Shown here one piece after another: positions 6,341-61,617 of a DNA stretch of 64,000 nucleotides. Location of the stretch: the NCBI GenBank assembly GCA_022414725.1, contig CM039463.1:22701511-22765510 (forward strand), written 5' to 3'. The notes under the pieces are model-generated. The model made no database searches. It worked only from the letters and a program-made list of their open reading frames with translations, and was not told where the DNA came from. A program made the translations under genes and the position numbers. Origin of the DNA: Microglena sp. YARC. Taxonomy: Eukaryota; Chlorophyta; Chlorophyceae; Chlamydomonadales; Chlamydomonadaceae. The stretch's first letter is position 1. Each line of letters begins with the position of its first letter.

Positions 6341-6378
<38 letters not shown>

Positions 6379-34221: not shown

Positions 34222-34860
34222 TTACGGTGCCACTAAGCAGTCCAGGGCTTCCTGTCTTGCTCTTCTACAAGTAGAAAGATAGTCGGCTAGGTTGCTCCAA
34301 AAAGACTTAGTGCCATTTCCATTCATAAAGGTTCTGAATGTGGAATCGCAGAATTCCACATTCCATACGGTTAAGTCGGTATCCTCATGGACATGCCTAT
34401 AAATATCTGTAAACAGATTCTGGTAGCGGAGGCGAATATCATTATAAAAAGGGCACTCAAACATATGCATTTCATCCTCAGTTTTTTGGAACCCACACAT
34501 TTGACAGTGTCTCATTGAGCGAGGGATGTGTGCTCTATCCACCACCCTCATTCTTTCTGTGTTCAGCCAATGGGAACCCATTCTAAACTGTGCTATAGAA
34601 CGAATCTGATCCTGCTTATGTAAGGCGGATGTAAAGGGAATCAAGCCATTCTCATCATTGCTGTTGGCTGCGAACCATTTTTGGTATCGGAGGCGTTTAA
34701 AGCCAACCCTTCTCTCATCAGGGGTGTCTCTAACTGCATTGGTGTCACTTGGGTACTTAAACCTCCATGACTCAAAAACTTCAGACATAATACCTTCGAC
34801 ATCGACAGCCTCCAAAATGTTGATGTTTTTACTGGATCCTAGCTTGTGGAGAGCACAAGA
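34222..34860 (-). pseudogene. LINE 3' fragment (zf-RVT-like C-terminus)
   Basis: About 200 residues with FRMGSHWLNTERMRVVDRAH, then CQMCGFQKTEDEMHMFECPF: a C-x2-C...H-x4-C motif typical of the C-terminal region of LINE reverse transcriptases. RT itself is absent, so this is a 5'-truncated insertion, the usual LINE fate. It ends LDCLVAP with a stop at 34,222 and is followed by a T-rich tail on the - strand. Confidence 0.75.
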
Positions 34861-34940
34861 TCCAGTTTTTAGCTTTACTGGATCCTAGCTTGTGGAGAGC
34901 ACAAGATCCAGTTTTTACTGGATCCTAGCTTGTGGAGAGC
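34826..34940. repeat. Three tandem 40-bp units at the LINE 5' end
   Basis: TTTTTACTGGATCCTAGCTT then GTGGAGAGCACAAGATCCAG, three times. The first copy overlaps the LINE reading frame (SCALHKLGSSKN), so part of the element was locally duplicated. Confidence 0.88.
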
Positions 34941-35284: not shown

Positions 35285-35964
35285 CCGGGTGAGCAAGGGC
35301 AACAATGATATACCTCTGGACCCAGATCCCACACCATTGCATTACTGTATGCACACACAAGCACAACACGAACTAGACAAGAAGTACAGTGCTCTAATGC
35401 TTCTCTGCGTCAAGATTGTCAAGGAAGATGAAATTCAGCCTCCAGATCCCACACCATGACAGAACTGTACGCACACACAAGTACAACAATAACTAGACAA
35501 GAAGTACAGTGCTCTAATGCTTCTCTGTGTCCACATCGTCAATGAAGATGAACTTCAGCACCTAGATCCCACACCATGACAGAACTGCTCGCACACACAA
35601 GTACAACAACAACTTGGCAAGGAGCACAGTGCTCTAGTGCTTCTGCCCGTACCATAGCAATGGACAGACCTAGACAAGGAGAACAGTGCTCTAATGCTTG
35701 TCTGCATGAACATGGAAAACAAATATAAACTTCTGCACCCAGTTACCACACCACTCCCACAGGCCTGCAAAAGCCAGTGCTGCCAGTCCCATTGCAATGG
35801 TCAGACCTAGAAAAGGAGTTCAGAGCTCTAGTGCTTGTCTGCGTGAACATGGTAAACAAATATAAACTTCTGCACCCAGTTACCACACCACTTCCACAGG
35901 CCTGCAAAAGCCAGCACTGCCCGTAGCATAGCAATGGTCAGACCTAAGCAAGGAGAACAGTGCT
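35285..35964 (-). repeat. Tandem copies of the PAO-like gene's last-exon 3' end
   Basis: Units of roughly 120-150 bp sharing GAGAACAGTGCTCTAGTGCT, ATAAACTTCTGCACCCAGTT and CCACAGGCCTGCAAAAGCCA. Two nearest copies (about 35,930-35,820 and 35,790-35,680) still read FAGLW(E/K)WCGNWVQKFIFV; the first also keeps the final HADKH and stop. More distant copies (35,300-35,640) are degenerate. All lie downstream of the stop codon of the main reading frame. Confidence 0.85.
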
Positions 35965-36213
35965 CTAGTGCTTGTCTGCATGAACATAGTCAACAAATAT
36001 AAACTTCTGCACCCAGTTACCACACCACTCCCACAGGCCTGCAAAAGCCAGTGCTGCCAGTCCCATTGCGATCGTCACGATTTTGAGCGTGGTAGCAGTG
36101 TCAGGGCCAAGAGGAGGGGCGTTCTGTAGGTTGGAGAGGAGAAGGGCACCGGAGGTAACAGCACAGCCTAGCAGACAGGCCGCAGTCCCAGCAGCAGCGA
36201 CCATTTGGGCCAC
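35965..36213 (-). CDS. PAO-like exon 11 (terminal)
   Basis: Acceptor TTTTCAG|GTGGCCC, phase 0. Encodes VAQMVAAAGTAACLLGCAVT (first membrane helix), IVTIAMGLAALAFAGLW (second) and ends KFIFVDYVHADKH. The FxDYVHA ending is family-like. Confidence 0.9.
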   Translation of the reverse strand: MAQMVAAAGTAACLLGCAVTSGALLLSNLQNAPPLGPDTATTLKIVTIAMGLAALAFAGLWEWCGNWVQKFIFVDYVHADKH

Positions 36214-39200
36214 CTGAAAACCAGTACGGCACAGTTAGTTGGGGGTGGGAGGGTGGGTGGGTGGGGGGGTGGGGAGGAAGGAAGGGGGGAGGTAATGGCA
36301 CAGCCTAGGAGACAGGCCACAGTCTCAGCAGCAGTGACCATTTGGGCCACCTGAAAATCAGTATTGCACAGTTTGTTGGGGGTGGGAGGGGGGGTGGAAG
36401 GGTGGATGGGTGGGTGGGGGGTGGGGAGGAAGGAAGGGGGGGAGGTAATGGCACAGCCTAGGAGACAGGCCACAGTCTCAGCAGCAGTGACCATTTGGGC
36501 CACCTGAAAATCAGTATTGCACAGTTTGTTGGGGGTGGGAGGGGGGGTGGAAGGGTGGGTGGGGGGTGGGGAGGAAGGAAGGGGGGGAGGTAATGGCACA
36601 GCTTAGGAGACAGGCCACACTCTCAGCAGCAGTGACCATTTGGGCCACCTGAAAATCAGTATTGCACAGTTTGTTGGGGGTGGGAGGGGGGTGGAAGGGT
36701 GGATGGGTGGGTGGGGGGTGGGGAGGAAGGAAGGGGGGAGGTAATGGCACAGCCTAGGAGACAGGCCACAGTCTCAGCAGCAGTGACCATTTGGGCCACC
36801 TGAAAAATCAGTATGTACGGCACAGTTAGTTGGGGTGGGAGGGGGGGTGGAAGGGTGGGTGGGTGGGGAGGAAGGAAGGGGGGGAGGTAATGGCACAGCC
36901 TAGGAGACAGGCCACAGTCTCAGCAGCAGTGACCATCTGGGCCACCTGAAATCAGTACGGCACAGTTAGTTGGGGAGGGGGGAGGGGGGGAGGAAGGGGG
37001 GGAGGTAACGGCACAGCCTAGGAGACAGGCCATAGTCCCAAAAGCAATGATCAGTTGGGCCACCTAAAAATCAGTACAGCGCAGTTAGTCGGGGTGGGGG
37101 AGGGGGAGGGAAGGGGAGGGTGGGGAGGGAAGGGGGGGGGGGGGGGGGGGGTAATGCGCGCAGCCTAAGAGACAGGCCACAGTCCCACCAGCAGCGACCA
37201 GTTGAGCCATCTGAAAAGCAGTACGGCGCAGTTAGTTGGGGTGGGAGGGGGGATGGGGGAGGGATGGCGGGGGAGAAGGGTGGGGAGGGAAGTGTGTGTG
37301 TGTGGGGTGAACAAGGGGGGAGGCAATCACAAGGATTATATGCTTTCTACTCCTTAAGCCTATTTGGCCTACCCCTGGACTATAACAACGTTCAATACTC
37401 ATTAGTCCTTGAATCCACTCTTTATTCACACATCCATCCATTCACTCACTCACTCCCTCACCCATTAACTCACTCACTCACCCGTTATCTCACTCACTCA
37501 CCCACCCACCCACTAACTCTCTCACTCACCCATTATCTCACTCGCCCATTCACTTACTCACCCAGTCATTCACTCACACACCAATTGACTCACTCACTCG
37601 CCCATTCACTTGCCCACTCTTTCACCGACACACCCATTAATTCACTCACGCACTCCACCAACGCAACTTGTCAGAGCTCCTGTAGTAAACAAATGACTAA
37701 AAGTACCAGACTTTCCCCTGCCTTACAAAATGTTTTCCACTCTAGCAAGATTGGATACATCGTTTCTCACCTGGAAGTTGTGCATGCCACCTCAGCAAGA
37801 TTTGCAATGCTTGGTGTGAGATTCGACATCAAATAATCCACATAATTATAGAGTGAGCCCCCCCCCCCCCATCTAAAAAAAGCCTCACATCCACACACCT
37901 AGACCCACACTTACAAATTGTTTCTCACCTGGAAGTTGTGCATGGCACCTCGGCAAGACTTGCAGTGCTTGGTGTGAGATTCGACATCAAATAATCAGCG
38001 AGTTAGAGAGTGAGACCCCCCCACCCCCCCACCCTCACACACACACACACACACAAATCCTCACATCCACACACCTACACCCACACCTACAAAATGTTTC
38101 TCACCTGGAAGCTGTGCATGGCACCTCGGCAAGACTTGCAGTGCTTGGTGCGTGTGTTTATTTTATAGGAAAAGGAACTTTTAATAGCACCCGGGTGCTC
38201 CTAGGAGCTTTTGGAGTGCAATTATTAGTTTTGGGGCTCTAAAGGCAAACCCTGCTACTCACCTGAAAATTGTGCATGGCACCTCGGCAAGACTTGCAGT
38301 GCGTGGTGTGAGAGTTGACATCAAATAATTCACACAATGATATAGTGAGACCCTCCCCCACCCCCCGACCCCCACCCCACCCCAAAAAAGCCACACACTC
38401 ACACACCTAGACCCACACACATACACATGGAGTCTCACCTGGAACTTGTGCATGGCACCTCGACAAGAATTGCAGTGCTTAGTGTGTGAGTCGACATCAC
38501 ATAATCAACATGATTCAAGAGTGAGACCCCCACCCCCACCCCCCACCCCCCCCAAAAAAGCCACACACCCACACACATACACCCACACATACACATCAAG
38601 TCTCACCTGGAAGCTGTGCATGGCACCTCGACAAGACTTACAGTGCTTAGTGTGAGATTCGACCTCAAATGATCTACACGATTCAAGAGTGAGACCCCCC
38701 CCCCCCCCACCACCACCACCACCACCACCACCACCACCCCCCCAAAAAAGCCACACACCCACACACATACACCCACACATACACATCAAGTCTCACCTGG
38801 AAGCTGTGCATGGCACCTCGACAAGACTTACAGTGCTTGGTGTGAGATTCGACCTCAAATAATCTACACGATTCAAGAGTGAGACCCCCCCCACCACCCC
38901 CCCAAAAAGCCACACACCCACACACATACACCCACACATACACATCGAGTCTCACCTGGAAGCTGTGCATGGCACCTCGACAAGACTTACAGTGCTTGGT
39001 GTGAGATTCGACCTCAAATAATCTACACGATTCAAGAGTGAGACCCCCCCCACCCACCCCCCCAAAAAAGCCACACACCCACACACATACACCCACACAT
39101 ACACATCGAGTCTCACCTGGAAGCTGTGCATGGCACCTCGACAAGACTTACAGTGCTTGGTGTGAGATTCGATCTAAAATAATCTACACGATTCAAGAGT

Positions 39201-42200
39201 GAGACCCCCCCCCACCCACCCCCCCAAAAAGCCACACACCCACACACATACACCCACACATACACATCGAGTCTCACCTGGAAGCTGTGCATGGCACCTT
39301 GACAAGACTTACAGTGCTTGGTGTGAGATTCGACCGCAAAATAATCTACACGATTCATGAGTGAGACCCCCCCACCCCCCCCAAAAAAAGCCACACACCC
39401 ACACACCTACACCCACACATACACATGGAGTCTCACCTGGAAGCTGTGCATGGCACCTCGACAAGACTTACAATGCTTGGTGTGAGATTCGACCTCAAAT
39501 AATCTACACGATTCAAGAGTGAGACCCCCCCCACCCCCCCCCCCCAAAAAAGCCACACACCCACACACCTACACCCACACATACACATGGAGTCTTACCT
39601 GGAAGTTGTGCATGGCACCTCGACAAGACTTGCAGTGCTTGGTGTGTGAGTCGTAGCGATCCAGTAGCTGCGTCCTCGGAATATCCTGCACAAATCATAT
39701 TAATAAGGAAGTTGTTACAGTCCAGGTGTAGACAAAATAGGCTGAAGGGACTTGCCCAACCATGGTAAGGAGAGTCAGTAACGGAAAAGCAATGCTGAAC
39801 TGAACCCAACCGATCCTTTTACCAATGGGGGCCCTGAGTTCGTGATATTGTGTGTAAATAGGTAAATGGATAGTGAATAATATATAGCAAATAATATACA
39901 ATATATGATATCCTGCATATTGTGGGTAAATAATAATGAATAGTGTGTAATATATTTGCGATCGCTGATTGCGATTTGAAATCATATATATTGTGGGCAA
40001 ATAATAATGAATAGGGATTTCCCCTGATATATATAGAGATCGCTAGTTTTGACCCCGTTTTAGCGAAACGATCGCTACAAGAAGGTAAAAAAAAAGGCTT
40101 GTTTGCCCTAAATTGCGCTTTAAGCTGTAAAAAGCACCAATACGCTGTCCATGGAGGAGACCAAAAACCATGAAGCTAACAAGAAAACCACTTGCAGATT
40201 TGAAAAAAAATCCCTGTAGCACATAGGACATATTATACAATATGTAATATCCTGCACACATATTGTGGGTAAATAAGAATGAATATTGTTAAGTATATCA
40301 TACCTAAATATAAACAATATACAACATCCTGCACACAGGATATCGTGGGTAAGTAATAATGAACATTGTAAAATACATGATACATTATATAAATAAAAAA
40401 CTCTCATCAATCTGATCCCCCATGAAAAACAGTATCGCGAAGAAGTGGGCCATGGGGGCCAGGCCAAGTCAATCATGAATGATGGAGGCCAAGCCATCAG
40501 TATGGTGAAAAATGGAGGCCAAGCCATAAGTATGGTGAACCAAGGAGGCCAAGCCAACATAAGTATATAAGTATCATGAACAAGGTAGGCCAAGCCAAGC
40601 CAACTGTGGTCGTACCAAGGGTGCTTGTGGTGCACCTGGAGGGAAGGAGGGTCCTCCCCCGGCCACTGAGCGCAACCACTTGCAACACTTGGCCACCATA
40701 CCATCGGCGGATGTAGCTAGGTAGTAGTCCTGAGATTGGGGGTGGGTGAGGTGGTGAGGGTGTGTCAGGCGGTGGTGGTTTGTTAATGTGTAAGACTGGG
40801 GTTGTGTTGTGTTGTGTTGTATTGTGTTGCATTGATTTGCATTGATTTGTGTTGCAACACATGGCCACCATAACATCATGGGGGGGGGGGGGGGGGGGTC
40901 CTGTCCTGTGTTGTATTGAGTTTTATTGCTTGGTCTTGCAACACTTTGGCCACCATAAACATCGGCGGATGTAGCTAAGGTAGTAGTCCTGAGATTGGGG
41001 GTGGGTGAGGTGGTGGTGGTTTGTTAAGATGTATAACTGGGGGGGAGGGGTGGGGAGTTGTGGTGTGGTGCATTGTGGTGTGTTTCGGTGTGCTGTATTG
41101 TGTTATTTTGTGTTGCGTTGCTTTGTGTTGCTTTGTGTTGCAATACTTGGTCACCATTCCATCAGCAGCTGTACCTGGCTGTTGTCTTGCTATAGCATGC
41201 GGGTGAGGGTTGCAAGGGCGGGTGAGGTGGTGGTGGTTTGATGGGGGTTTTGTTGTGTTGTGGTCCTTTGTGGTGTGATGCATTATGTTGCGTTGCTTTG
41301 TGTTGCAATACTTGGCCACCATGCCATCAGCAGCTGTATCTAGGTTGTAGTCATGATACAGCATGCGGGTGAGGGTGGCAAGGGCGGGTGAGGTGGTGGT
41401 GGTTTGATGGGGGTTGTGTTGTGTTGTGGTCCTTTGTGGTGTGATGCATTATGTTGCGTTGCTTTGTGTTGCAATACTTGGCCACCATGCCATCAGCAGC
41501 TGTATCTAGGTTGTAGTCATGATACAGCATGCGGGTGAGGGTGGCAAGGGCGGGTGAGGTGGTGGTGGTTTGATGGGGGTTGTGTTGTGTTGTGGTCCTT
41601 TGTGGTGTGATGCATTATGTTGCGTTGCTTTGTGTTGCAATACTTGGCCACCATGCCATCAGCAGCTGTATCTAGGTTGTAGTCATGATACAGCATGTGG
41701 GTGAGGGAGGCGAGGGTGGATGAGGTGGTGGTGGTTTGCAAGGGCGGGTGAGGTGGTGGTGGGTTGCAATGGGTGGGTGAGGTGGTGGTGGTTTGATGGG
41801 GGTTGTGTTGTGTTGTGTTCTGGTGCATTACGGTGTGTTGTATTGTGTTGTGTTGTGTAGAGTTGCTTTGTGTTGAAGCAGTTGGAAAGCATGCCATCAG
41901 CAGCTGTAGCTTAGGTGAAAGGTGGGCGAGGGTGGGTAAGGTGGAGGTGGTTAGTTAAGGCTTATCTGACAGTGAGGGTGGGTGAGCTGGTGGTGGTTAG
42001 TAGGTCGGTAGAACATGAAGCTGAGTGAGTCATCCAAGGTGTGTGGTGCGCGGTAGGATCCCCCCCCCCCCCCCCCCCCCCCCAACTCCCCCCACACACA
42101 CACACTACATCACACACACCACCACATACACACACCACCGTGAACCACTGCACAGCACACACCTTGCTTGTCTTCCCGCTCAGCTTCATGTTCTCCCCTT

Positions 42201-45200
42201 GATAGTGCAGGAACACACCGTCACCGTCAAAGATGCCGTGACCAAAGTTTAGGTGGCCAAGCCAAGTAGGGAAGAGTTTCTTCATCATATTAGCCTTAAA
42301 CTGCTCAAAACCTTTCTTCGTCTGCAGATGGTAGGAGGGAGGGAGGTGGTAGGTGGGATGCGGGAGGAGGGAAGTGGGTGGGAGGTGGTGTGGGAGGTGG
42401 TAGGTGGAAGGTGGAAGGTGGATGTGAGAGGAGGGAAGTGGGTGGGAGGTGGTGTGGTAGGTGGAAGGTGGAAGGTGGTATGAGGGAGGTGAAAGGTGGG
42501 ACGGGGGAGGAGGGAGGTGGGATGTGGTCAGTGGTAGGAGGGAGATGGAAGGTGGGATATGGTAGGTGGTAGGTGGTAGGTGGTATGAGGAAGGTGGAAG
42601 GTGGGACGTGGGAGGAGGGAGGGGGGAGGAGCACGGTGGATGGGAGGAGGGAGGTGGGATGTGGTAGGGGGGAGGTGGGATGTGGGATGTGGTAGGAGGG
42701 ATGTGGGAGGAGAAAGGTGGTAGAAGGAAGGAAGGTTGTAGGAGGGAGGAAGGTGGTAGGAAGAAGGAGGGAGGTGGTGGGAGGGAGGTGGTAGGAAGGA
42801 GAAGGGAGGTGGGTAGGAGCAGGGAAGTGGGATGTGGTAAGTGGTAGGTAGTAGGAGGGAGGTGGAAGGTGGATGTGGGAGGAGGGAAGTGAGTGGGAGG
42901 TGGTGTGGTAGGTGGTAGATGGAAGGTGGAAGGTGGTAGGTGGTATGAGGGAGGTGGAAGGTGGGACGTGGGAGGAGGGGGGTGAAAGGTGGGACGTGGG
43001 AGGAGGGAGGTGGGATGTGGTCAGTGGTAGGAGGGAGATGGAAGGTGGTAGGTGGTATGAGGGAGGTGGAAGGTGGGACGTGGGAGGAGGGAGGTGGAAG
43101 GTGGACGTGGGAGGAGGGAGGGGAAGGTGGATGGGGAGGAGGGGAGGTGGGATGTGGTTGGGGGGAGGTGGGATGTGGGATGTGGTAGGAGGGATGTGGG
43201 AGGACAAAGGTGGTAGAAGGAAGGAAGGTGGTAGGAAGAAGGAGGGAGGTGGAGGGAGGAGGGAGGTGGTAGGAAGGAGAAGGGGGGTGGGTAGGAGGGA
43301 GGAAGGTGGTAGAAAGAAGGAGGGAGGGAGGGAGGGAGGTGGTAGGAAGGAGAAGGGGGTGGTAGGAGCAGGGAAGTGGGATGTGGTAGGTGGTAGGTGG
43401 TAGGAGGGAGGTGGAGGGTGGGACGTGAGAGAAGGGAGGTGGGATGTGGTAGGCGGTAGGTGGTAGGAGGGAGGTGGAAGGAGGGAGCTGGGTGGGAGGA
43501 GGGAGGTGGGATGTAGAAGGTGTTAGGAGGGAGGTGGGTGGGAGGAGGGAGGAGGGAGGTGGGATGTGGTAGGTTTAGGAGGGAGGTGGTTGGGAGGAGG
43601 GAGGTGGGAGGTTGGATGTGGTAGGTGTTATGAGGGAGGTGGGTGGGAGGTGGGAGGAGGGAGGTGGGATGTGGTAGGTGATAGGAGGGAGGTGGGTGGG
43701 AGGAGGGAGGTGGGAGGCGGGAGGTGGTAGGTGTTAGGAGGGTGGTGGGTGGGAGGAGGGAGGTGGTAGGTGGGAGGTGTTAGGAGGGAGGTGGTGGGAG
43801 GAGGGAGGTGGGATGTGGTAGGTGTTAGGAGGGAGGTGGGGGGGAGGTGGAGGTGATAGGTGGGAGGAGGGAGGTGGGTGGGAGGGATATGGTAGGAGGG
43901 ATGTGGGAGGAGAAGGGTGGTAGGACGAAGGAGGCAGGTGGTAGGACGGAGGGAAGTGGGAAGAAGGAGGAGGCAGGTGGTAGGAGGCAGGTGGTAGATG
44001 GTAGGAGGCAGGTGGTAGGAGGCAGGTGGTAGGAGGCAGGTGGTAGGAGGCAGGTGGTAGGAGGGAGATGGGAGTAGGAAGGTGTGAGGTGTGAGATGGC
44101 CAATGCCGATAATGAAGGGTAGAAATGGAGGTCACACACACACATACACAGACATATACACACACAAACACACACACACACACTCACACATATACACACA
44201 CGAACAGACACACACACAAACAGACACTCAAGCACAGACATACACACACTGTGCAAGTATACGAACACAGACACAGACACACACTAACATACGAAGACTG
44301 TGCATGTATACAAACACAGACATACAGGCAAACAAACAAACAGACACACACCGTGCATGTATACAAATACATACAGACATACATACTGTGCATGTATACA
44401 AACACAGACAAACATACAGAGACGGATACACACACTGTGCATGTATACAAACACAGACATACAGGCACACAAACAGACACACACTGTGCATGTATAAAAA
44501 ACATAACATACACACACTGTGCATGAATACAAACACAGACATACAGACACACAAACAGATACACACTGTGCACGTATACAAAACACAGACATACACACAC
44601 TGTGCATGTATACGAACACAGACATACAGACACACAAACAGATACACACTGTGCACGTATACAAAACACAGACATACACATACTGTGCATGTATACGAAC
44701 ACAGACATACAGACACACAAACAGACACACACTGTGCACGTATACATAACACAGACATACACACACTGTGCATGAATACAAACACAGACATACAGACACA
44801 CAAACAGATACACACACTGTGCACGTATACAAAACACAGACATACACACACTGTGCATGTATACGAACACAGACATACAGACACACAAACAGACACACAC
44901 TGTGCACGTATACATAACACAGACATACACACACTGTGCATGAATACAAACACAGACATACAGACACACAAACAGATACATACACTGTGCACGTATACAA
45001 AACACAGACATACACACACTGTGCATGTATACGAACACAGACATACAGACACACACTGTGCACGTATACATAACACAGACATACACACACTGTGCATGAA
45101 TACAAACACAGACATACAGACACACAAACAGATACACACACTGTGCACGTATACAAAACACAGACATACACACACTGTGCATGAATACAAACAGACATAT

Positions 45201-48200: not shown

Positions 48201-51200
48201 TTCAAGTTCTGTTGCTTGGGTACCATACTCTTGATGGACAGGGCTGTCAATATCATTCTGGTGAACCATGGCCATCAGCCAAACAAATAACATCATTCCA
48301 ACCTGCGTAGTGCCCATAACTTCCATGGTGTTCAAGTGTTCCAGTTCTATTGCTTGGGTACCATATGCTTGATGAACAGGGTTGTCCTGGTGAACCATGG
48401 CCATCAGCCAAACAAACAAGCACCATAACTCCAACATGTTGAGTGCTTACAACTTTCATGGTGTTCAGGTGTTCAAGTTCCATTGATTAGGTGTGACTAT
48501 GGCCATCAGCCAAACAAGTGAACACAACCCCTGTTGAGTGCCCATGACTTCCATGGTGTTCAGGTGTTCAAGTTCCATTGATTAGGTGTGACTATGGCCA
48601 TCAGCCAAACAAGTGAACACAACTCCTGTTGAGTGCCCATGACTTCCATGGTGTTCATGTGCTCAACTTCCATTGATTGAGAACCATGTCTTTGATAAAT
48701 GAGATGCAAAACTTGCATGGTGACGTTTTCCTAACTGGATCCTCCAGTGTTTCCGACGCTCACCAGCGCCATCAGCCAAACAACAAAACGCAACTCCAAC
48801 CTGTTTAGTGCCCATGCCTTCCATGGTTTTCAGGTGTCCAGGTGTTCAAGTTCCCTTGATTGGGCACTACCATGGCCATCAGCCAAACAACACAGCACAA
48901 CTCCAACCTGTCCATGACTTCCAAGGTGTCCAAGTTCCATTGATTGCGTCCCATGTCCTTAATGAATGAGATAACAAGCATGCATGTACATTGTATTGAT
49001 ACTGTGTCATCATAGTGGATGTTACAGTCCAGAGGTAGGTATAGTGTCCATAACTTCCATGGAGTTCAGGTGATCAAGTAACCCTACTTGGGCACTATAA
49101 TGGCCATGAGACAAGCAAGATAGTTGTTACAGTCCAGGGGTAGGCCAAATAGGCTAAAGGGGCTTTCCCAACCGTGACAGGAGGGGCTAATGAAAAACAT
49201 GCACGATAACATTTGCCAAGCTGGGTCCTCCAGTGTTTCCGATCGTCTCCATGGCCATAAGACAAGCAAGATAGTTGTTACAGTCCAGGGGTAGGCCAAA
49301 TAGGCTTAAAGGGCTTTCCCAACTGTGACAGGAGAGGCTATAACATAGAAGCACTGATGAACTGAACCCCAAACAATTGTTTTACTGACGCGGGCCCTTA
49401 GACCGTGCAACAGTGAAAATGTAATTCAAAAAATAACAGAATGACAGCTTACCTATTGAGTCTACCCAATCCATGGTGGCTAAAGTGTAGATGTCCAGGG
49501 TCCACCAAGTTTTCCAGCATTATATGGGGCCAGATGCTCCCCCCTCCCCACCCCCCCCCCACCCACCACCCACCACTCACCCCACCTACACTCACACAAC
49601 CACGTGCTACACTACAAATATAATTCAAACAAATAACAAAACGGCAGCTTACCTGTTCAGTCTACCCAATCCATGAGTTCATGCTTCAGTAATTAAAACA
49701 TTCAAACAAATAACAAAACTACAGCTTACCTGTTCAGTCTACCTAAGCCGTGGTGACTGAAGGGTAGATGTCCAGGGTCCACCAGGTTTTCAAGCAGCAT
49801 CTCGTAGCTGTAAGGTAGGTGTCTTGAGAAGCATGCCATGGGGTTCAGTTCACTGTACTTCTCCAAGAACTCGGGTACTGGAATGTACGTGTCAGCAGCC
49901 TCGGACACGGAGGCGGCATCAGGCCACACGAACAACATACCAGCGCGGACCTGCGGGGGTGAGGAGAAGGGGAGATGAGGGGAGGGGGGTGAGGAGGGGT
50001 AAGAAGGGGGGGGGCCTGGAGGGGCGTTGGAGGGGGAGGGGGGGGGAGGGGCAGGAAGGGGAGAAAAGGTGATATCTCCAACAACTCTGATATTATGATG
50101 TATATGTCAGCAGCCTCAGACACAGAGGCAGTATCAGGTCACATGAATAACATACCAGCGCGGACCTGTGAGGATGATGAGGAGGGGAGATGAGGGGAGG
50201 GGGGTGAGGAGGGGTAAGAAGGGGGGGAAGGAGGGGCATTGGAGGGGAGGATGAGAAGGGGGGAGGAGGGGGAGCGCTGGAGGGGGTGTGGCGAGGGGAA
50301 GAAGGGGGGGGGAGGAGGGGCATTTGACAGTGGGTGATGAGGGGCAGGAAGGGGAGGAAAGGTGATGTCTCCAACAACTCTGATACTAGGATGGACTTGA
50401 CAGCAGCCTCAGACATGAAGGCAGCACCTGGCCACACAAACAACTGACCAGTGGGGGTACCTGCGGGGGAAAGGAGGAGGGGAGATGAGGGGAGGGGGGT
50501 GAGGAGGGGTAAGAAGGGGGGGAAGGAGGGGCGTTGGAGGGGGGGTGATGAGGGGCAAGACGGGAAGGAAAGGTGATGCCTCCAACAACTCCTGCTTTAC
50601 ATCAGAGCTGAATCAAGGAAACAGGTACACCATTATATTCAGAGCGCTCTTGTCTCACCTGTGTGAGATATGACGTCGCTGCTGAGCGGGGGCTGCTGCA
50701 TGCAGCGGCAGCACAACTAATTATACTGTATCACAGCTTATGTGTGGCCACAGCTAATTATAGTGTGCTCTTGCCTCACCTGTGTGGGATATGACGTAGC
50801 TGCTGAGCGGGGGCTGCTGCATGCGGTGGCAGCACAACTAATTATACTGCGTCACAACTAGTGTGTGTCCAGGGCTAAATCTAGTGTGCCACAAACAATG
50901 TGTGGCCACAGCTAATTATAGTGTGTCACAACCAATGTGTGGCCACAGCTCATTATAGTATGCTGTTCTCTCACCTGTGTGGGATACGCTGTTGCTGCTG
51001 AGCGTGGGCTGTTGCATGCAGTGGCAGCGGCACGGCTGTCCTCAGCTTGCGGGACGGTAGTGCACTTGCCAGCACCACCGAACCTGTGACAGTGGAGGTG
51101 AGAGGGTGATGATAATGATGATGTGGGTGGAGAAGGAGGAGAAGAATGGAAGAGGGGGGAAAGAATGCTTCATGTGATGGCAGCAACACGGCTGCCTTCG

Positions 51201-52406
51201 GCTTGTGGGATGGTAGTGCACTTGCCAGCACAACCGAACCTGTGACAGTGGAGGTGAGAGGGTGATGATGATGATAGTAATGATGTGGGTGGAGGAGGAG
51301 GAGGAGGAGAGGAGGAGGAGAATGTAATAGGGGGGAAAGGCTTCTGCATGTGTTGGTGGTGGCTCGGCTGTCCTATGCCTGTTGCATGGTGGTGCATTTG
51401 CCAGCACAAACAAACCTACGAAAAATGTGTGAGAATGGTGGATTGTGGTGAGTGATGGTTGATGATGGAGGGGGGTGAGAGTGAGGGTGGTGATGATGAT
51501 GAGCAGGATTGGAATTGGGGGAAAAGGCTGCTGCATGTGGTGGTGTTGGCACGGCTGTCCTGTGCCTGTGGCATGGTGGTGCACTTGCCAGCACCAACAG
51601 ACCTGTGAAAAAGGTGCGAGAATGGTGAAATAAATTGAATGATGGTCGATAGGTCTATGATGGTGGGAGTGAGAGCGGAGGTGGAGATGATGATGAGCGG
51701 GATTGGAATTGGGGGGAAAGGCTGCTGCATGAGGTGGTGTTGGAAAGGCTGTCCTCTGCCTGCAGAGATAGATGGTAGGACATGATGGATGGTTGTGGCA
51801 ATGATGGGTGGAGGGGTGGAGGGGGTGGCTGCTAACGCCATGTATTTTTCAGGCAGGGATCTAGGTCCAAAGCAAATTTCTGTATAATTCTCTCATTTAC
51901 ACATAGTATTATATGATATAATATAATCTTTATATGCATATACTATTTTACACATAAGCAGATAGCTATCTATATAAGATATATAGCATATAATAGTATA
52001 TAGCATATAATTATCATTTACCACCCGCAATCTATACCTTACCTCCAACCATGGTATGAATCAAGCTTCAAAAGGAAAATGATATAAAGTGGATATAAAG
52101 CTTGCGATAATTTAAATATCGCTTGACATGTAACCATGGTACGAATTCAGATTTTAAATAAATATACAAACAAATAAATACATAAATAGAATAAATCTTA
52201 CAATAATTGAAATAACGACTTACCTCCACCCATGGTATGAGCATTGTAGAGTTCCATCCGACTCAATTCGTCCCTCTGCAAGTAATACATAAACATCCGG
52301 GTGAGCTGGCATACATAACAATCGGGGTTAGCTGTTCAGGGGGGTGGGGGGGGGGGGGGATTTAAAGGAGGTCATATCAATCTGATCACAAGAGGGGTGA
52401 GCTCTT

Positions 52407-52442
<36 letters not shown>

Positions 52443-55400
52443 AAGGAGGACATAACAATTGGGGTGAGCAGTTGAGGGGTGGGATATGAGAGGACGTAAC
52501 AAAAAGGGTGAGTTGTAGAGGTGGAGCATTTAAAGGAGGACATCACAGTCAGGTCACAACAGGGGTGAGCTGTTGAGGGGGATCATTGAAGGGAGGATGC
52601 CAAAGGGCTCTACAGAGGAGGGAAAACATCATGACCGCCCTTATCAACCTAAGGTGACCAGCTGGTAGGTGATGGTATTAAGGGAACCCCGTCTTACGAT
52701 GGTGGGGAACGAGCTGCTACTTTACCTGGACATAGCTACCATGGCGGTTGACAGCAACCGCAAACACTGAAGCATACCGTAGGGATTCGCTGCCTAATAC
52801 TTGGCAAGTCTTAGGCAGCTTTTAAACCCGCACCTTCATCATTTCAAGGAGCCCTACCATTGAGCCATTTGTCGAAACGGGATCTCCATCTGCATGCGTA
52901 AACTCAACATCGCTCGCCACAAGAGATGAAAGACATGCCAAGCTACTTAAACACTAACCTCCACTCAGTGTGTACCACCCCACCCCACACTAAGTGAGTA
53001 CTGCCCCACATTCAGTGTGTACCGCCCCATACTCACCACTTAGAGGTGCCAGCCGATGCGGGCAGGCATCATCAAACACGCGCCATGCACCCTTGTTTTC
53101 AGTGCTACTGGCAGCTTCCGAGGACTGCGGAGTGTTAGATGCATTGGAGTCCCACCACGCGACATACCGTCGTCCTATCAGTGTGACGGCGTGTGGACGG
53201 CTTTTGTCTAAATGTTCCACCAACAACACCGGCCACCAGTTCTTGAGCCAGTTGAAGGGAGTGGAGGGCTCCTCCAAACTGCATTGGTGTTGGGCAAAAG
53301 ATAAGAGAGATATCGAGGTATAAAAACAGTTTGTATGTATACAGGGGGCCGTCAGATGCATTAAGTCCCACCACACATAATGTCTACACCCTACCATTGT
53401 GACTGCATGTGGGCAGCTTTTTTTTAGATGCTCCACTAACACCGGCCACCAGTTATTGAGCCAGTTGAAGGGGATGGAGGGCTCCTCCACACTGCGTTGG
53501 TGTTAGTCAAAAGCTGAGAGATATAATGCAGTGTAAAAACAACACTACACATACATATATATACACCCACAGGGGGTCTGTCAGATGCAATGTAGTCCCA
53601 CCACACGAAATATCTACACCCTATCATTTTGACTGCATGTGGGCGGCTTTTGTCTTGATGCTCCACCAACACCACCGGCCACCAGTTCTGGAGCCAGTTG
53701 AAGGGGCTAAAGGGCTAAAGGGATAAAGGGCTGCTTAACACGGTTTTGGTAGGCAAGTTGGGCAAAATCTATGAGGCAACTTAGGAAGAAGCTGCTTGGC
53801 AAGTTAGGAAAGTTAGGACAGTTGGGAAAAAGCTGTTAGGCAAGTTGGGAAAAAGCTGCTTATAAAATTCGTATTAGCTAAGTTAGGCAAAAGCTGTTGG
53901 GCAAATAGGGCAAATGCTGTTAGGCAAGTTTGGAAAGAACTAAGACGGACTGGCAACCCAGAGGCGGAGCATTGAGAAAGAACACTGAGCAACAACATAT
54001 GTCGCTCCACAAGCCACACCACCCACAGCTTTTCTTATGTTCTGTTCCGATGCTCTGTTCTGTTCCAATGTACTGTACTGTTCTCTTCCAATGTGCTGCA
54101 AATGTAATATAAATCGCAGCCTTGCCCTCCGCTCCCTTCCCCCTGCCCGTGACTGCTGAAGTGTTTTTCTGTGTAGCTCGGGACATGCCCTTGGGACTTG
54201 TCTTATCCGCTTCGAGCAACAGCTTCTAGACAGCTCCCGGGGCCAGCCACTGACCTAAGCATCAAGATCTCATAAGTATTGGAAATACTGTCTTGTCAGC
54301 TTCCAGATGCACTACTTTGCTGAAGATTTGGCTGGGTGGCAAGCCAAGAGAGCTGCCTAGTAGCTGCTGCTGGTAGCTGAAAAGAAAAGCTATGCTTTCA
54401 ATTTGACTCTTTTATAATGAACCAATTTTGTGAAACCCACAACTTCAAAACAAAAGACAGCGAACCGAACATTCGTCAGAAAAATATACAAAATAATTAA
54501 ATCACAGAATATTTTTTAAGTAGAAAAACGTAGGTAGAGTGTTTGGGGGTAATAACGCCAACATTTTGGCACCTCTTACCCCTCAAAATCGTCATTGTAC
54601 ATGGTGCCTCTAGGCCAGCTATGTATGTATGTTACAGTCCAGGGGTAGGCCAGATAGGCTTAAGGGACTTGCCCAACCGTGATAGGAAGGGCTTAAAAAG
54701 AAAAAGCATTCTTAAACTGAGCCTCACACAATCGTTTTACCGACGGGGGCCCTGAATCCATGCTACATACAGTTACTACTGTGTGCTCAAAAGTGCCCAA
54801 ATTTGAGAATGAACTTGCTAAGCATCAGCTCTTGAGGATCGACGGCACCCTCCATATCCCTGCTCCCTCCATTCTCCCTGCTCAGTTCCCTGCTTTCCTT
54901 CTCCTGCACATCCCAAGCCATCACCAAACATTCACCCACCATACAGCCCACACCACCCCACCTACACCCTCACCCCAAACCCAAACCCACACATCTTAAC
55001 CGTTGCCAGAAATTAACCCACCATACACCCCACCCTACCCCCACATCCCAAACCCTCACCAAAAATCCACTACCATAAACCCCACCCAACCTACAACTAC
55101 ACCCCCACCCTCACACCCACCCTCACCACCACCACCACCACCACCAAACCCACACATCCCAAACCCTTACCAAACATCCACCCACCATAAACCGCACCCC
55201 CGCCTACACCCTCACCCACACCTTCACACCCACACATACCAACCCCTTGCCACCCCCACCACCCCTACACTCTCACACCCACACCCAACCTCACACATCC
55301 CAAACCCTTTCCAAACACCCACCCCCCATATACCCCACCCCACTTACACCCCCCACCCTCACACCCAACCACACATCCCAAACCCTTTTCAAACATCTAC

Positions 55401-57170
55401 CCACCATACACCGCACCCCGCCTACAATCTCACACCCACCTTTACACACACCCAAACATCCCAACCTCTTGCCAAACATCCACTCACCACATACCCCACC
55501 CCACCCCACCCCACCCCACCTACACGCCCACCCTTGCACCCACACCCACACAACTCAACCCTTGCCAAACATCCACCCACCATAAACCCCACCCCACCTA
55601 CACCTACACACTCACACTAACAGCCACACCCACGCATCCCAAACCCTTGCCAAACTTCCACCCACCATATACCCCACCCCCACCCCACCTACACCTAAAC
55701 CCTCACACCGTCCCTCACAGCCACACCCACACATCCCAAACCCTTGCCAAACATTCACCTACCATTTACCCTACCTCACCCCACTTACACACACACACTC
55801 ACACACACACAACCAAACCCTTGCCAAATATTCTCCCAGCATATACCCCAAACCACCCTAACCCACCTACACACCCATCCTCGCACCCAAACATCCCCAC
55901 CCCTTGCCAAACATTCACTCACCATAAACCCCACCCCACCACACTTACTCGCCCACCTCCACACCCACACAATTCAACCCTTGCCTAGCATCCATCTCCA
56001 CAAATTATGCAGTGTAATGGTGTATAAGGCTACAATATATATGGTTTGCTCACCGTGTTTCCTTGTACCTCGTCAATTTCAGAGTAAATATCTGATAATG
56101 ATAAAAACTGAGATTTCGTAAATATCCACAGAAATGAGGAACCGAAGCGTCTGCCCACAAGGGTACAATATATATGGTGTATTCCTTCCCATATTTGCTC
56201 CACCCGCAGACAACATGCAGCTTGAAGGCCAATACGCGATGCATCCAAACCAATCCAAACCTTGCCAAACATCCACCCACCATCCACCATCCACCACCCA
56301 CCAACCTTGCCAAACATCCACACACCACACACCAACCTTGCTAAACCTTGCCAAACATCCACCCACTCACCACCACCACACCCCCAACCACCACCACACA
56401 CTACCACACACCACTACACACCACCCACAGGCTTGAGGTTATACCTCACGTCCTCCTGCTTCGGGACGGTCAAGCCCTGGGTGGAATAGGAGTTCAATAG
56501 GGCACCATAATAATGAAAAAATCATCATGTGGTCCCCGTCTCCATACACAACAAGCTACCTGATGCCCGCCTCCTCCACCACCATGGGGCTACTTCCATG
56601 GAGCTCCTGTGGACACTGGACTCCCACTCACCCACATCCACACCCACACCAACACCCACACCCACACCCACACCCACACCCACACCCACACCCACACCCA
56701 CTCCATCCCATGTCCCATGCCCCAACCCTTGATAAACATCCCACCCACATCCAAACCTTGATAAATATCCCACCCACATCCAACCCTTGAAAAATATCCC
56801 ACCCACATCCAACCCTTGATAAGCATGCCACCCACATCTACCACATCCTCCCCCAACACACAGAGTCAGGCTAGAGGTCACACCTTGGGTCCTCCAGGTC
56901 TATGTTGCCCTCCTCCTTCACCTCCGTTGGACTATCGGCCATAGCGATTCTGGGGACGTGGGTCGTTCTCCGAGGTCTCTGAGCGGCTGCCCTACGGCTA
57001 TGCCTGGCTGGGGTGTTGCCCCAGGCAGGGAGCAATTGCGCGTGTGGGAGGGTCGGGGTTCGCTTCGAAGCCATGATGCTGCCACGCATGGGCCCGAAAG
57101 TGCATGTGGCCTTTAACACCGGGGCATAGCGAGCGGCAGAGCAAGACGTGCTAATATTGGGTCGAAGCAT
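35965..57170 (-). CDS. PAO-like: PAO-like Rieske oxygenase (plastid), 11 exons
   Basis: Eleven exons join in phase to 621 codons plus a stop. Residues 1-95 form a Ser/Ala/Arg-rich transit-like extension. The Rieske [2Fe-2S] ligands are C168-x-H170 and C188-x2-H191 (ACPHRLAPLS and CSYHGW). The mononuclear iron site is N285, D288, H291, H296 (ENLVDPGHLPFSHH). A C528-x2-C531 motif (HTKHCKSCRGAM) is typical of the PAO/PTC52/TIC55 group, and hydrophobic segments at about 542-566 and 583-600 would anchor the C-terminus. Plant PAO opens the pheophorbide a ring using ferredoxin-derived electrons during chlorophyll breakdown; sequence alone does not separate that from PTC52- or TIC55-like roles. Introns are 0.6-3.7 kb and filled with repeats, many made from the gene's own exon ends. 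Despite this the main frame has no lesion, so I think it is functional. Confidence 0.9.
36214..37225 (-). repeat. Seven extra copies of the exon 11 acceptor end
   Basis: Units of about 150 bp (acceptors near 36,350, 36,500, 36,650, 36,800, 36,950, 37,065 and 37,213). Each has TTTCAG|GTGGCCCAAATGGTCACTGC-type sequence, then about 50 nt of exon (VAQMVTAAETVACLLGCAIT), then G-rich intron DNA on the + strand. No donor was seen after the exon-like part, so these could act only as decoy acceptors. Confidence 0.92.
37226..37768. repeat. Low-complexity intron DNA, (CACT)n-rich
   Basis: G-rich at 37,230-37,320, then a partial R1 end (37,355-37,385), then CACTCACTCACCCATT-type repeats to about 37,660. 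No gene. Confidence 0.8.
37769..39440 (-). repeat. Eleven extra copies of the CxxC exon (exon 10)
   Basis: Donor-side ends near 37,769, 37,927, 38,101, 38,260, 38,437, 38,604, 38,793, 38,953, 39,114, 39,276 and 39,434, spaced about 160 bp. Most encode VESHTKHCKSCRGAMHSFQ followed by a good donor (CAG|GTGAGA), with an AG directly before the GTC; that core is 57 nt, phase 0 to 0. Between copies are C-rich tracts and ACACCCACACATACACAT. Whether any is spliced in is unknown. Confidence 0.93.
39599..39685 (-). CDS. PAO-like exon 10 (CxxC motif)
   Basis: Acceptor TTGTGCAG|GATATTCC, donor CAG|GTAAGAC; 29 codons, phase 0 to 0. DIPRTQLLDRYDSHTKHCKS then CRGAMHNFQ. This copy alone has the full LLDRY lead-in known in the family, so I take it as the working exon. 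Confidence 0.88.
39713..39845 (+). repeat. Dispersed repeat R1 in PAO-like intron 9
   Basis: TGTTACAGTCCAGGTGTAGA, GGGACTTGCCCAACCATGGT, GGGGGCCCTGAGTTCGTG. Full-length orientation opposite to the gene. Confidence 0.8.
39850..40600. repeat. AT-rich repeats and R2 copy in intron 9
   Basis: Holds ATATTGTGGGTAAATAATAATGAATA-type repeats (shared core TTGTGGGTAAATAA, 39,850-40,380), an R2 copy at about 40,140-40,215 (CCATGGAGGAGACCAAAAAC) and repeated GGAGGCCAAGCCATAAGTAT units at 40,450-40,570. Confidence 0.75.
40616..40729 (-). CDS. PAO-like exon 9
   Basis: Acceptor AATCTCAG|GACTAC, donor TTG|GTACGA; 38 codons, phase 0 to 0. DYYLATSADGMVAKCCKWLR then GGGPSFPPGAP matches the family's T-x-AD-x-x-V...KWL segment. 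Of eight related copies it is the only one that continues beyond the first 25 residues. Confidence 0.85.
40740..41910 (-). repeat. Seven extra copies of the exon 9 acceptor end
   Basis: Copies near 40,858, 40,950, 41,150, 41,318, 41,489, 41,650 and 41,885. The 41.3-41.7 kb units are almost identical, spaced about 170 bp, and read YNLDTAADGMVAKYCNTK. Inter-copy DNA is GT-rich with TTGTGTTGTGTTGTG. A poly(G) lies at about 40,880-40,898. Confidence 0.9.
42163..42321 (-). CDS. PAO-like exon 8
   Basis: Acceptor CATCTGCAG|ACGAAG, donor AAG|GTGTGT; 53 codons, phase 0 to 0. Encodes a helical segment and GIFDGDGVFLHYQGENMK, the family's D-G-D-x-V-F-L-x-x-Q motif. No self-copies are seen nearby. A poly(C) run follows at about 42,061-42,083. 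Confidence 0.9.
42330..44095. repeat. GGGAGGTGGTAGGA-type satellite in intron 7
   Basis: About 1.8 kb of purine-rich DNA built from GGGAGGTGGTAGGAGGGAGG and relatives, with irregular longer units of about 60-230 bp (for example 42,380-42,480 again at 42,850-42,980). Long open frames rich in Gly, Arg or Pro are artefacts. Confidence 0.93.
44120..45765. repeat. CA-rich minisatellite in intron 7
   Basis: Units of about 60-72 bp: ACTGTGCATGTATACAAACA, CAGACATACAGACACACAAA, CAGATACACAC. A higher-order unit of about 120-130 bp alternates GTGCATG and GTGCACG forms. It keeps frames open for hundreds of codons on both strands; none is a credible gene. Confidence 0.95.
45776..45890 (-). CDS. PAO-like exon 7
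   Basis: Acceptor CTACCACCAG|GTCTGG completes the phase-2 codon from exon 6; donor CAG|GTAAGA. RSGSSMGGRWGATILYLSPT then SPGKSVVFLFNFFSGMQPQ; the T-x-SPGKS-x-V word is a family hallmark. Confidence 0.9.
46000..46345 (-). repeat. Three extra copies of the exon 7 acceptor end
   Basis: Copies near 46,045, 46,215 and 46,340 contain ACCAG|GTCTGGGTCTTCAATG or its tail and read GGRWGATVLYLTPTS before drifting into (GGT)n-rich intron sequence. The outermost copy is fused directly to a decayed exon 6 end. Confidence 0.88.
46365..47125 (-). repeat. Five extra copies of the exon 6 donor end
   Basis: Units of about 170 bp near 46,365, 46,530, 46,700, 46,873 and 47,048. They share exon sequence for FEVIQLDFMSSATNLAFHAP and AHVRYLR, then CTCAG|GTACGAGG-type donors and an intron piece with GCGGAGC. 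Decay grows with distance from exon 6. Confidence 0.93.
47219..47449 (-). CDS. PAO-like exon 6
   Basis: Acceptor CATCCAG|GGACTC completes the phase-2 codon from exon 5 (NR-DSGGPTPMIDL); donor CTCAG|GTAAAA, phase 2. Contains PAHFKGIKVDPMFPFPDDLD and NLAFHAPAHVRYL. Confidence 0.9.
47545..47665 (-). repeat. Decayed copies of the exon 6 acceptor end
   Basis: CACAGGGCCACCGGAATCTC (47,618) and CATGCCACCGGAGCCCTCCT (47,550) correspond to exon 6 start and interior sequence. They follow a (GT)n stretch at 47,470-47,530. Confidence 0.7.
47666..48080. other. Intron 5 spacer with an R3 fragment
   Basis: Contains an R3-like fragment at about 47,938-47,990 (TACGCCGTGCCACAGGCGTG, AGATTGAGGG). Nothing coding was recognised. 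Confidence 0.5.
48080..49265. repeat. Minisatellite in PAO-like intron 5
   Basis: About ten units with ATGACTTCCATGGTGTTCAG, GTGTTCAAGTTCCATTGATT and ATGGCCATCAGCCAAACAA. Three copies also carry a longer block, on the - strand GGAAACACTGGAGGACCCAG (near 48,115, 48,755 and 49,240), which vaguely resembles the start of exon 6 (GGACTCCGGTGGCCC). That relation is tentative. Confidence 0.85.
49130..49395 (+). repeat. Two dispersed repeat R1 copies
   Basis: TTGTTACAGTCCAGGGGTAG at 49,113 and 49,275, both followed by CCAAATAGGC and the CCCAAC(C/T)GTGACAGGAG segment. The second copy continues to GCGGGCCCTTAGACCGTG. They are separated by a minisatellite unit, so the region was duplicated as a block. 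Confidence 0.8.
49446..49680 (-). repeat. Two extra copies of the exon 5 donor end
   Basis: The outer copy (49,530-49,453) reads MLENLVDPGHLHFSHHGLGR then LNR|GTAAGC, retaining the metal-binding N, D, H and H. The inner copy (near 49,655) keeps only HGLGRLNR and the donor. A C-rich tract lies between. Confidence 0.92.
49730..49950 (-). CDS. PAO-like exon 5 (mononuclear iron site)
   Basis: Acceptor CCCCGCAG|GTCCGC, donor AACAG|GTAAGC, phase 0 to 2. VRAGMLFVWPDAASVSEAAD, then the ENLVDPGHLPFSHHG iron-binding segment. Confidence 0.92.
50090..50445 (-). repeat. Two extra copies of the exon 5 acceptor end
   Basis: Near 50,165-50,090 the sequence follows GTCCGCGCTGGTATGTTATT but has TGA in place of TGG. 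Near 50,445-50,385 it is more decayed (TTTGTGTGGCCAGGTGCTGC). G-rich DNA separates them in about 270-bp units. Confidence 0.88.
50650..50840 (-). repeat. Two extra copies of the exon 4 donor end
   Basis: Both carry TGCAGCAGCCCCCGCTCAGC, then TATC(T/C)CACACAG|GTGAG. They lie about 120 and 240 bp beyond exon 4 with AGCTAATTATAGTGTG repeats around them. Confidence 0.9.
50975..51083 (-). CDS. PAO-like exon 4
   Basis: Acceptor TGTCACAG|GTTCGG, donor ACACAG|GTGAGA, phase 2 to 0. RFGGAGKCTTVPQAEDSRAA then PRSAATAYPTQ, matching the family segment between the Rieske CxxH and the V-x-G-L-x-F-VWP word. Confidence 0.9.
51180..51790 (-). repeat. Four extra copies of the exon 4 acceptor end
   Basis: Near 51,240, 51,415, 51,600 and 51,770. 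They read (G/C)AGKCTT(I/M)(P/Q)QA, two with in-frame stops, after CACAG|GTTCGG-, GTTTGTT- or GTCTGTT-type acceptors. Units of about 180 bp also carry (GAT)n- and GGAGGAG-rich intron DNA. Confidence 0.93.
52035..52155 (-). repeat. Decayed copies of the exon 3 donor end
   Basis: At 52,060-52,039 the - strand reads CATACCATGGTTGGAGGTAA, copying exon 3's CATACCATGGGTGGAGGTAA. A weaker copy, CGTACCATGGTTACATG, is at about 52,150-52,128. Confidence 0.8.
52224..52275 (-). CDS. PAO-like exon 3 (second Rieske motif)
   Basis: Acceptor TACTTGCAG|AGGGACG, donor GGAG|GTAAGT, phase 1 to 2, 52 nt. Completes EGRIESDGTLQCSYHGW. The short exon is confirmed by the motif and by both phases. Confidence 0.92.
52310..53036. 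other. Intron 2 with poly(G) and short repeats
   Basis: G runs at about 52,345-52,360 and 52,410-52,440 sit in roughly 70-bp units with GGGGTGAGCTGTTGAGG and AAAGGAGGACAT. From about 52,600 to 53,036 I see nothing recognised, apart from AGTGTGTACCGCCCCA-like repeats near 52,965-53,030. Confidence 0.75.
53037..53278 (-). CDS. PAO-like exon 2 (first Rieske motif)
   Basis: Acceptor CAATGCAG|TTTGGAG completes the phase-2 codon of exon 1; donor AGTG|GTGAGT, phase 1. FNWLKNWWPVLLVEHLDKSR, PHAVTLIGRRYVAWWD, a Ser-rich insert of about 20 residues, and WRVFDDACPHRLAPLS. Confidence 0.92.
53355..53725 (-). repeat. Two extra copies of the exon 2 acceptor end
   Basis: The inner copy (acceptor CAACGCAG at about 53,492) reads EEPSIPFNWLNNWWPVLVEH. 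The outer copy (about 53,722-53,590) reads FNWLQNWWPVVLVEHQDKSR. Both cover only the first half of the exon and end in an intronic segment with ATACATATATATACACCCAC-like sequence. Confidence 0.92.
53740..53930. repeat. Minisatellite GGCAAGTTGGGAAAAAGCTG
   Basis: Irregular 20-40 bp units of AAGTTAGGCAAAAGCTGTTG and relatives in intron 1 of the PAO-like gene. Confidence 0.8.
53931..54290. other. Intron 1 spacer
   Basis: Contains GTTCTGTTCCAATGTACTGT-like short repeats (54,038-54,095). No exon is supported, and exon 1 joins exon 2 in phase without one. Confidence 0.5.
54290..54400. repeat. Dispersed relative of the 74-bp unit
   Basis: GTCAGCTTCCAGATGCACTA, then GAGCTGCCTAGTAGCTGCTG and GCTGAAAAGAAAAGCTATGC. 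The last part matches the right end of the gene A intron array (about 6,270-6,305). Confidence 0.7.
54631..54765 (+). repeat. Dispersed repeat R1 copy
   Basis: TTACAGTCCAGGGGTAGGCC, TTGCCCAACCGTGATAGGAA, CGTTTTACCGACGGGGGCCC. One of the best-preserved copies. Confidence 0.85.
54880..56420. repeat. Minisatellite CCCTTGCCAAACATCCACCC in intron 1
   Basis: About twenty irregular units of 60-100 bp: CACACATCCCAAACCCTTGC, CAAACATCCACCCACCATAA, ACCCCACCCCACCTACACC. Interrupted at about 55,995-56,260 by non-repeat DNA. The Pro/His/Thr-rich frames are artefacts. Confidence 0.93.
56440..56475 (-). repeat. Decayed copy of the exon 1 donor end
   Basis: On the - strand CAGGAGGACGTGAGGTATAACCT-like sequence (two blocks, GGAGGACGTGAG and GTATAACCT) parallels exon 1's GGAGGACCCAAG|GTGTGACCT. 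Short, so tentative. Confidence 0.55.
56630..56840. repeat. (CCACAC)n and TTGATAAACATCCCACCCAC repeats
   Basis: A CCCACA microsatellite (56,635-56,700), then four 30-bp units with CCCACATCCAACCCTTGATA. Intron 1. Confidence 0.88.
56884..57170 (-). CDS. PAO-like exon 1 (transit-like N-terminus)
   Basis: From ATG 57,170: MLRPNISTSCSAARYAPVLK, rich in Ser, Ala, Arg and Thr and poor in acidic residues until MADSPTEVKEEGNIDLEDP. Donor CCAAG|GTGTGA, phase 2. Consistent with a plastid transit peptide. Confidence 0.8.
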
Positions 57171-61560: not shown

Positions 61561-61617
61561 CCTCCCTCAAGATGTGAACAATTACTGGTCCTGCAGCGGT
61601 AGTGACCTGTGGTAGGG

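Follow-up and report, generated by a model that had tools for sequence, protein, structure and literature searches.

How can a gene stay readable when the ends of most of its exons have been repeated, in decayed form, inside the neighbouring introns? The question is raised by a gene, here called gene A, that lies in the window analysed, a stretch of 64,000 nucleotides (C2:22701511-22765510) from the Microglena sp. YARC genome assembly (568 Mb in 2390 contigs). A first-pass annotation had described units spanning exon borders, with multiplied splice sites, and had traced a single clean path of 621 codons through them. An independent rebuild recovers that path. Gene A occupies positions 57170-35965 of the minus strand and consists of 11 exons separated by 10 GT-AG introns, and its frame has the same length as first reported, with zero internal stops.

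The predicted product of gene A is a PaO-type Rieske oxygenase, an assignment made at group level that leaves the PAO, TIC55 and PTC52 types unseparated. Both domains that define the group score above their curated Pfam cut-offs, these being Rieske (PF00355, E 2.9e-19, 69.2 bits versus a cut-off of 20.3) and PaO (PF08417, E 1.3e-9, 38.5 bits versus a cut-off of 27). In alignment the protein is 36-39% identical to five green-algal homologues, the best named homologue being from Edaphochlamys debaryana, and many others are also green-algal. The residues C168, H170, C188, H191, N285, D288 and H291 are invariant across the seven aligned sequences, one of which, EukProt P0001, is a prediction of gene A itself. 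These comprise the Cys and His positions of the Rieske cluster as well as the N-x2-D-x2-H region, both of which are taken to have ligand roles. Adjoining the 3′ end of the gene is a 220-aa frame (window 34225-34884, minus strand) that by eye resembles the C-terminal part of a LINE and has zero Pfam matches. Farther away, a copia-type reverse transcriptase domain (window 18801-19877, minus strand; PF07727, E 7.5e-57) marks an LTR retrotransposon near gene A, and a DDE_Tnp_4 transposase-like frame (window 61616-62230, plus strand; PF13359, E 2.9e-13) marks a DNA transposon upstream of exon 1.

Each exon was compared by BLAST with the gene A region, and separate border queries added weaker copies (Table 1). 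Exon-only BLAST detects 48 partial exon copies on the same strand, with a median exon part of 61 bp and an identity to the exon of 72.7-96.1%, in keeping with their first description as decayed. All 48 lie on the expected side, that is with 5′ exon parts upstream and 3′ exon parts downstream, and among them there are no whole-exon, inverted or wrong-sided copies; four of the 48 end more than 10 bp short of any exon end. Copies are present at 12 of the 20 splice sites (the acceptors of exons 2, 4, 5, 6, 7, 9 and 11 and the donors of exons 3, 4, 5, 6 and 10), and the coding end of exon 11 is likewise copied, which confirms the multiplied splice sites of the first-pass annotation. The number of exons with copies is nine of 11, not ten as had been stated beside a list that itself named nine: exon 8 has no exon copies by exon-only BLAST or border queries, and exon 1 gives a single match at chance level (12 exon bp, E 0.022, border query). 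The earlier copy numbers hold for exon 2 (two), exon 4 (four and two on the acceptor and donor sides), exon 7 (three), exon 10 (eleven) and exon 11 (seven, with five more around the stop codon). Two copies reported for exon 3 are indeed found, but only as weak matches of 17 exon bp in border queries; the two and two of exon 5 occur on both sides, one donor copy by border query only; at exon 6 the five donor-side copies stand and the acceptor side has one copy, not two; and exon 9 has five copies, not seven.

Table 1. Exons of gene A and the arrays of exon-end copies and intron repeats between them, in the direction of transcription (window positions)
Feature	Position	Strand	Remarks
Exon 1	56884..57170	-	start codon at 57170; no convincing copies
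Exon 2 acceptor-side copies	53351..53716	-	two, up to 143 exon bp, intron 1; BLAST and border queries
Exon 2	53037..53278	-	
Exon 3	52224..52275	-	
Exon 3 donor-side copies	52038..52144	-	two weak, 17 exon bp plus donor; border queries, E 4e-5 and 5e-4
Exon 4 acceptor-side copies	51178..51763	-	four; upper limit approximate; units interleave with those of the paralogue
Exon 4	50975..51083	-	
Exon 4 donor-side copies	50646..50889	-	two
Exon 5 acceptor-side copies	50075..50510	-	two
Exon 5	49730..49950	-	
Exon 5 donor-side copies	49424..49675	-	two, one by border query only
Exon 6 acceptor-side copy	47542..47642	-	one
Exon 6	47219..47449	-	
Exon 6 donor-side copies	46367..47124	-	five
Exon 7 acceptor-side copies	45984..46345	-	three; one is a 22-bp piece short of the border
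Exon 7	45776..45890	-	
Intron 7 donor-proximal array	44133..45767	-	begins 8 bp into the intron; free of exon sequence
Intron 7 acceptor-proximal array	42326..44099	-	stops at least 4 bp before exon 8
Exon 8	42163..42321	-	no copies
Exon 9 acceptor-side copies	40852..41735	-	five
Exon 9	40616..40729	-	
Exon 10	39599..39685	-	
Exon 10 donor-side copies	37757..39491	-	eleven, 53-55 exon bp, period ~160
Exon 11 acceptor-side copies	36267..37257	-	seven
Exon 11	35965..36213	-	includes stop codon
Exon 11 coding-end copies	35300..35940	-	five, four with 3′ flank

Gene A is not special in this layout, which it shares with a paralogue and with other genes. The paralogue, gene B, was located by a search with protein P0002 at C2:20915983-20938712, 1.8 Mb from gene A. 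Exons 2-11 of gene B form an open frame with exon 5 in two parts; an extra intron of 3365 bp lies between parts 5a and 5b, which are a single exon in gene A. Exon 6 of gene B encodes a short alanine-rich repeat that was missed by the search for inside-exon duplications described below. BLAST places 56 partial copies at 13 of the 20 splice sites of gene B, seven of the 56 not reaching the exon end, and here too there are no whole-exon, wrong-sided or wrong-strand copies. The copies of both genes are arranged head-to-tail on one strand, as in minisatellite-like tandem repeats (0 of 104 inverted or wrong-sided), with a median spacing of 157 bp (quartiles 127-176, n=98). By hand tally of 19 comparable borders, eight bear arrays in both genes, four only in A, three only in B and four in neither. 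In trees of the repeat units, clustering by gene holds for the donor units of exons 4 and 6 and for the acceptor units of exons 7, 9 and 11, whereas at the exon 4 acceptor the units of the two genes are intermingled; because of this mixing, the exon 4 acceptor array would be either older than the gene duplication or exchanged between A and B at a later time.

The suggestion that the same pattern be sought in other genes of the genome bore fruit not only in gene B but also in a set of 19 exon cores, each being only part of an exon, from seven gene regions. These were drawn from 34 PF01593 matches; the set leaves out 11 matches located on contig C3, three further ones, and one that is a copy in its own right. 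When same-strand copies within 4 kb are counted (two farther matches for one core being excluded), local copies are found for 14 of the 19 cores, in six of the seven gene regions, and the remaining five cores have zero copies within that distance. The copies comprise 70 partial ones on the expected side and none on the unexpected side, two that are near-whole-core and one that is inverted, and their median spacing is 150 bp. In a phytoene-desaturase-like gene, the 5′ part of one exon is copied many times.

That the arrays are artefacts of assembly is scarcely credible and is rejected: the average divergence of the copies of A and of B from their exons is 12-14%, and the layout is common to two paralogues and to several other genes. 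Copy-derived segments also occur in EukProt P0001, a record that may rest on the same assembly. Retrocopies are rejected as well, since the copies include intron sequence and splice sites.

Local duplication reaches well beyond these genes. Four stretches at round coordinates, picked blind, are 2%, 73%, 30% and 97% locally duplicated; the last (C3:40000001-40010000) is probably a satellite. First-order Markov resamples, built from six other loci fetched from the genome rather than from the window, contain zero local duplication in six of six cases, against a duplicated share of 77% in the introns of gene A (68% without low-complexity stretches). Over the window and fetched loci of 4.4-10 kb, tandem copies have a median spacing of 164 bp (quartiles 118-276, n=251), with no sharp preferred spacing in this sample. 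More dense tandem arrays are present at window positions 4001-6500 and 10001-12500, possibly within another gene. Within the window duplication is dense at 35-57 kb and almost absent on either side (17-29 kb and 57-64 kb), where transposable elements lie, and this distribution by itself would suggest a transcription-coupled origin, with arrays confined to transcribed introns. Such an origin is nonetheless extremely unlikely, and confinement to genes is rejected, as the flanks of gene B are 54% and 56% duplicated (so that confinement is not general, even if these flanks may hold other genes) and the elements flanking gene A may simply be young.

The changes accumulated in the copies of A and B bear on whether the copies do anything. 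In arrays of at least two copies, changes private to one copy fall on codon positions 1:2:3 in the ratio 66:65:72 (p 0.82; counts within an array are not independent), as in non-coding DNA, and the copies thus drift neutrally. A very unlikely alternative is that the copies are functional, serving as alternative exon ends, splicing selectors or regulatory decoys. Its best argument lies in the decoy splice sites themselves: 36 of 41 in gene A retain their dinucleotide (AG 17/20, GT 19/21), and for A and B together 79 of 89 are canonical, where flank identity would predict 68.4 (p 0.003). Some of this excess is to be expected because the functional splice site, being constrained, cannot change, yet it is also the only result that leans towards function. 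Against this stand the private changes, in which coding constraint is not seen, the presence of at most one splice site in each copy of A and B, a net frame-breaking indel in 17 of 104 copies, and a protein of gene A that, free of copies, aligns with its homologues. Alternative coding exon ends are rejected by the private changes, which lack codon-position bias, and the locus differs in the same respect from an array of mutually exclusive or alternative exons, where moreover whole-exon copies with both splice sites would be present (0 of 104).

Changes shared among copies behave differently from private ones. Those common to several copies are distributed 29:22:56 over codon positions 1:2:3 and those common to all copies 15:15:39, and because of this third-position bias the shared changes look like former states of the exon, which would have arisen while the sequence was functional. 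They match the base of the other paralogue at 47 of 154 sites versus 16 of 202 for private changes, or, at only those sites where the paralogue differs, at 47 of 87 versus 16 of 52 (p 0.009); once exons 3 and 4 are left out this excess is not significant (35/74 versus 16/49, p 0.14). In 16 of 22 arrays the copy nearest the exon resembles it more closely than the other copies do on average, in five it resembles it less and in one the two are equal (permutation p 0.0018), and the mean rank correlation of similarity with distance is only -0.18 over 17 arrays. The pattern of shared changes and the similarity of the nearest copy speak for a functional exon end that was copied time after time, the exon 10 donor and exon 11 acceptor arrays of gene A being excepted, as they have no clear gradient of similarity with distance.

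It remains to be asked whether exon borders as such are amplified, as the first-pass annotation had it. Local duplications with copies within 2 kb account for 77% of the intron bases of gene A (68% without low-complexity stretches), and allowing up to 4.5 kb between copies gives 77% for gene A and 65% for gene B. Against this background the borders do not stand out: 20-bp windows at splice sites are covered in 11 of 20 cases in gene A, compared with 75% of random intron windows, and in 13 of 20 cases in gene B, compared with 63%. In the exons of both genes the duplicated share is about 55-60% near the border and falls to 14-24% at 100-150 bp inside. Since cover at the borders does not exceed that of the introns and cover of the exons falls inward, duplication therefore runs through the introns and spills into exon ends. 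The first-pass annotation had itself named arrays placed at random relative to borders as the outcome that would speak against it, and within the introns of genes A and B this is the outcome observed.

If duplication were targeted to splice junctions, for instance through breaks or R-loops arising where exon borders are transcribed, the borders would be hot spots. Arrays at so many splice sites (12 of 20 for gene A, 13 of 20 for gene B) might call such a process to mind, as might breakpoints in exons 3, 4, 9 and 11 that nearly coincide between the paralogues. Exon-linked arrays also take up 39% of intron bases in both genes, a value that has no expected share with which to be compared. We consider such targeting unlikely, and a border hot spot is rejected, because in A and B splice-site windows are not above random intron windows; in addition, the shared breakpoint at the exon 4 acceptor fits an array that preceded the gene duplication or was exchanged, and inspection by eye brought out no clear common breakpoint motif or microhomology.

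A simulation of random duplications, retained only if the coding sequence stayed intact (30 runs per setting), indicates what spillover would yield. With starting introns of 350-500 bp, duplications span 10.7-13.2 of 20 borders, the observed numbers being 11 and 13, and 13-19% of intron bp is exon copy, the observed values being 14.6% for A and 13.8% for B; shorter or longer starting introns fit worse on one measure or the other. The same setting overpredicts the duplicated share of the introns (92-95% versus the 77% and 65% detected), a gap that could reflect old copies decayed past detection or a part of the intron that grew in another way. Expected ratios, scaled to the 25 border arrays of the two genes, predict about 5.2 duplications of whole exons and 4.6 lying inside exons; zero of either kind were found (Poisson P 5.5e-5). 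The non-random feature of these genes is the absence of inside-exon and whole-exon duplications.

The arrays are thus probably the product of introns inflated by recurrent local tandem duplication, in units of some 150 bp, that passed a coding filter and often took in exon ends, leaving many near-intact decoy splice sites behind. Local tandem duplication, widespread in the genome and with units mostly of 100-200 bp, would act on a working gene. Where a duplicated unit takes in a single splice site with some of the adjoining exon, the intact exon would be retained and the spare end would fall into the intron, where it should do very little harm; a duplication confined to an exon, or one taking in an exon entire, would damage the protein and be removed. 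Repeated rounds would leave larger introns with rows of neutral exon-end fossils and their decoys. We infer that the ancestral introns were short (about 350-500 bp, from the simulation) and that the functional exon end was re-copied repeatedly. Slippage, microhomology repair and unequal exchange are candidate mechanisms at the DNA level.

How the decoys would be passed over by the splicing machinery may be considered in terms of exon definition, in which the spliceosome pairs splice sites across exons. Half-exon copies, with no more than one splice site each, would escape such pairing, and we infer that the spliceosome ignores them by this means. Under pairing across introns instead, the advantage would lie with whichever donor copy is closest to the acceptor, and the message would gain fragments of exon. 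A joint reading can be put forward tentatively, as one less likely than not: introns would accrete from exon ends, the arrays would record earlier states of the exon with the youngest copy tending to adjoin it, half-exons would be ignored and whole-exon copies selected out, and the many near-intact decoys would let this genome serve as a natural test of exon definition.

The exon-end arrays are real and occur in several genes of this genome; their extent appears unusual, the elements being known, so that the novelty is one of extent rather than kind. The human interferon-induced gene 6-16 reportedly contains a minisatellite that yields tandem splice donors, and is likewise a case of a tandem repeat multiplying a splice donor, but at one locus, whereas the present arrays multiply donors and acceptors alike, at many exons and in several genes. 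In the AGGT model of intron gain, intragenic tandem duplication supplies splice sites as it does here; however, in that model an AGGT segment internal to an exon is duplicated to form a new intron, while here inside-exon duplications number zero and existing introns grow. The closest case among those consulted is a potato RdRp gene in which one tandem duplication across an intron-exon boundary, present in two copies, became a new spliced intron, as demonstrated by RNA-seq (PMC4974935). There a single event gave rise to a spliced intron; here splice-site arrays number 25, at donors and acceptors of two genes, and hold as many as 11 copies, known from genomic sequence. Compared with that single border-crossing case (PMC4974935), local tandem duplication accounts for the greater part of intron sequence in both paralogues. 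Another green alga, Haematococcus lacustris, has short repeats in tandem that form complex patterns tens of kb long, and the portion of that source drawn on, unlike the present case, makes no mention of arrays that contain splice sites or the ends of exons (PMC7617258).

The copies provide a natural set of decoy splice sites with which to ask how the spliceosome chooses, and the introns possibly hold a fossil record of exon sequence. On the practical side, the arrays mislead gene prediction. In EukProt P0001, a copy-derived insertion follows exon 4, exon 7 is replaced by copy-derived sequence, the end of exon 8 is absent and exon 10 is skipped, and these deviations are annotation errors due to the arrays.
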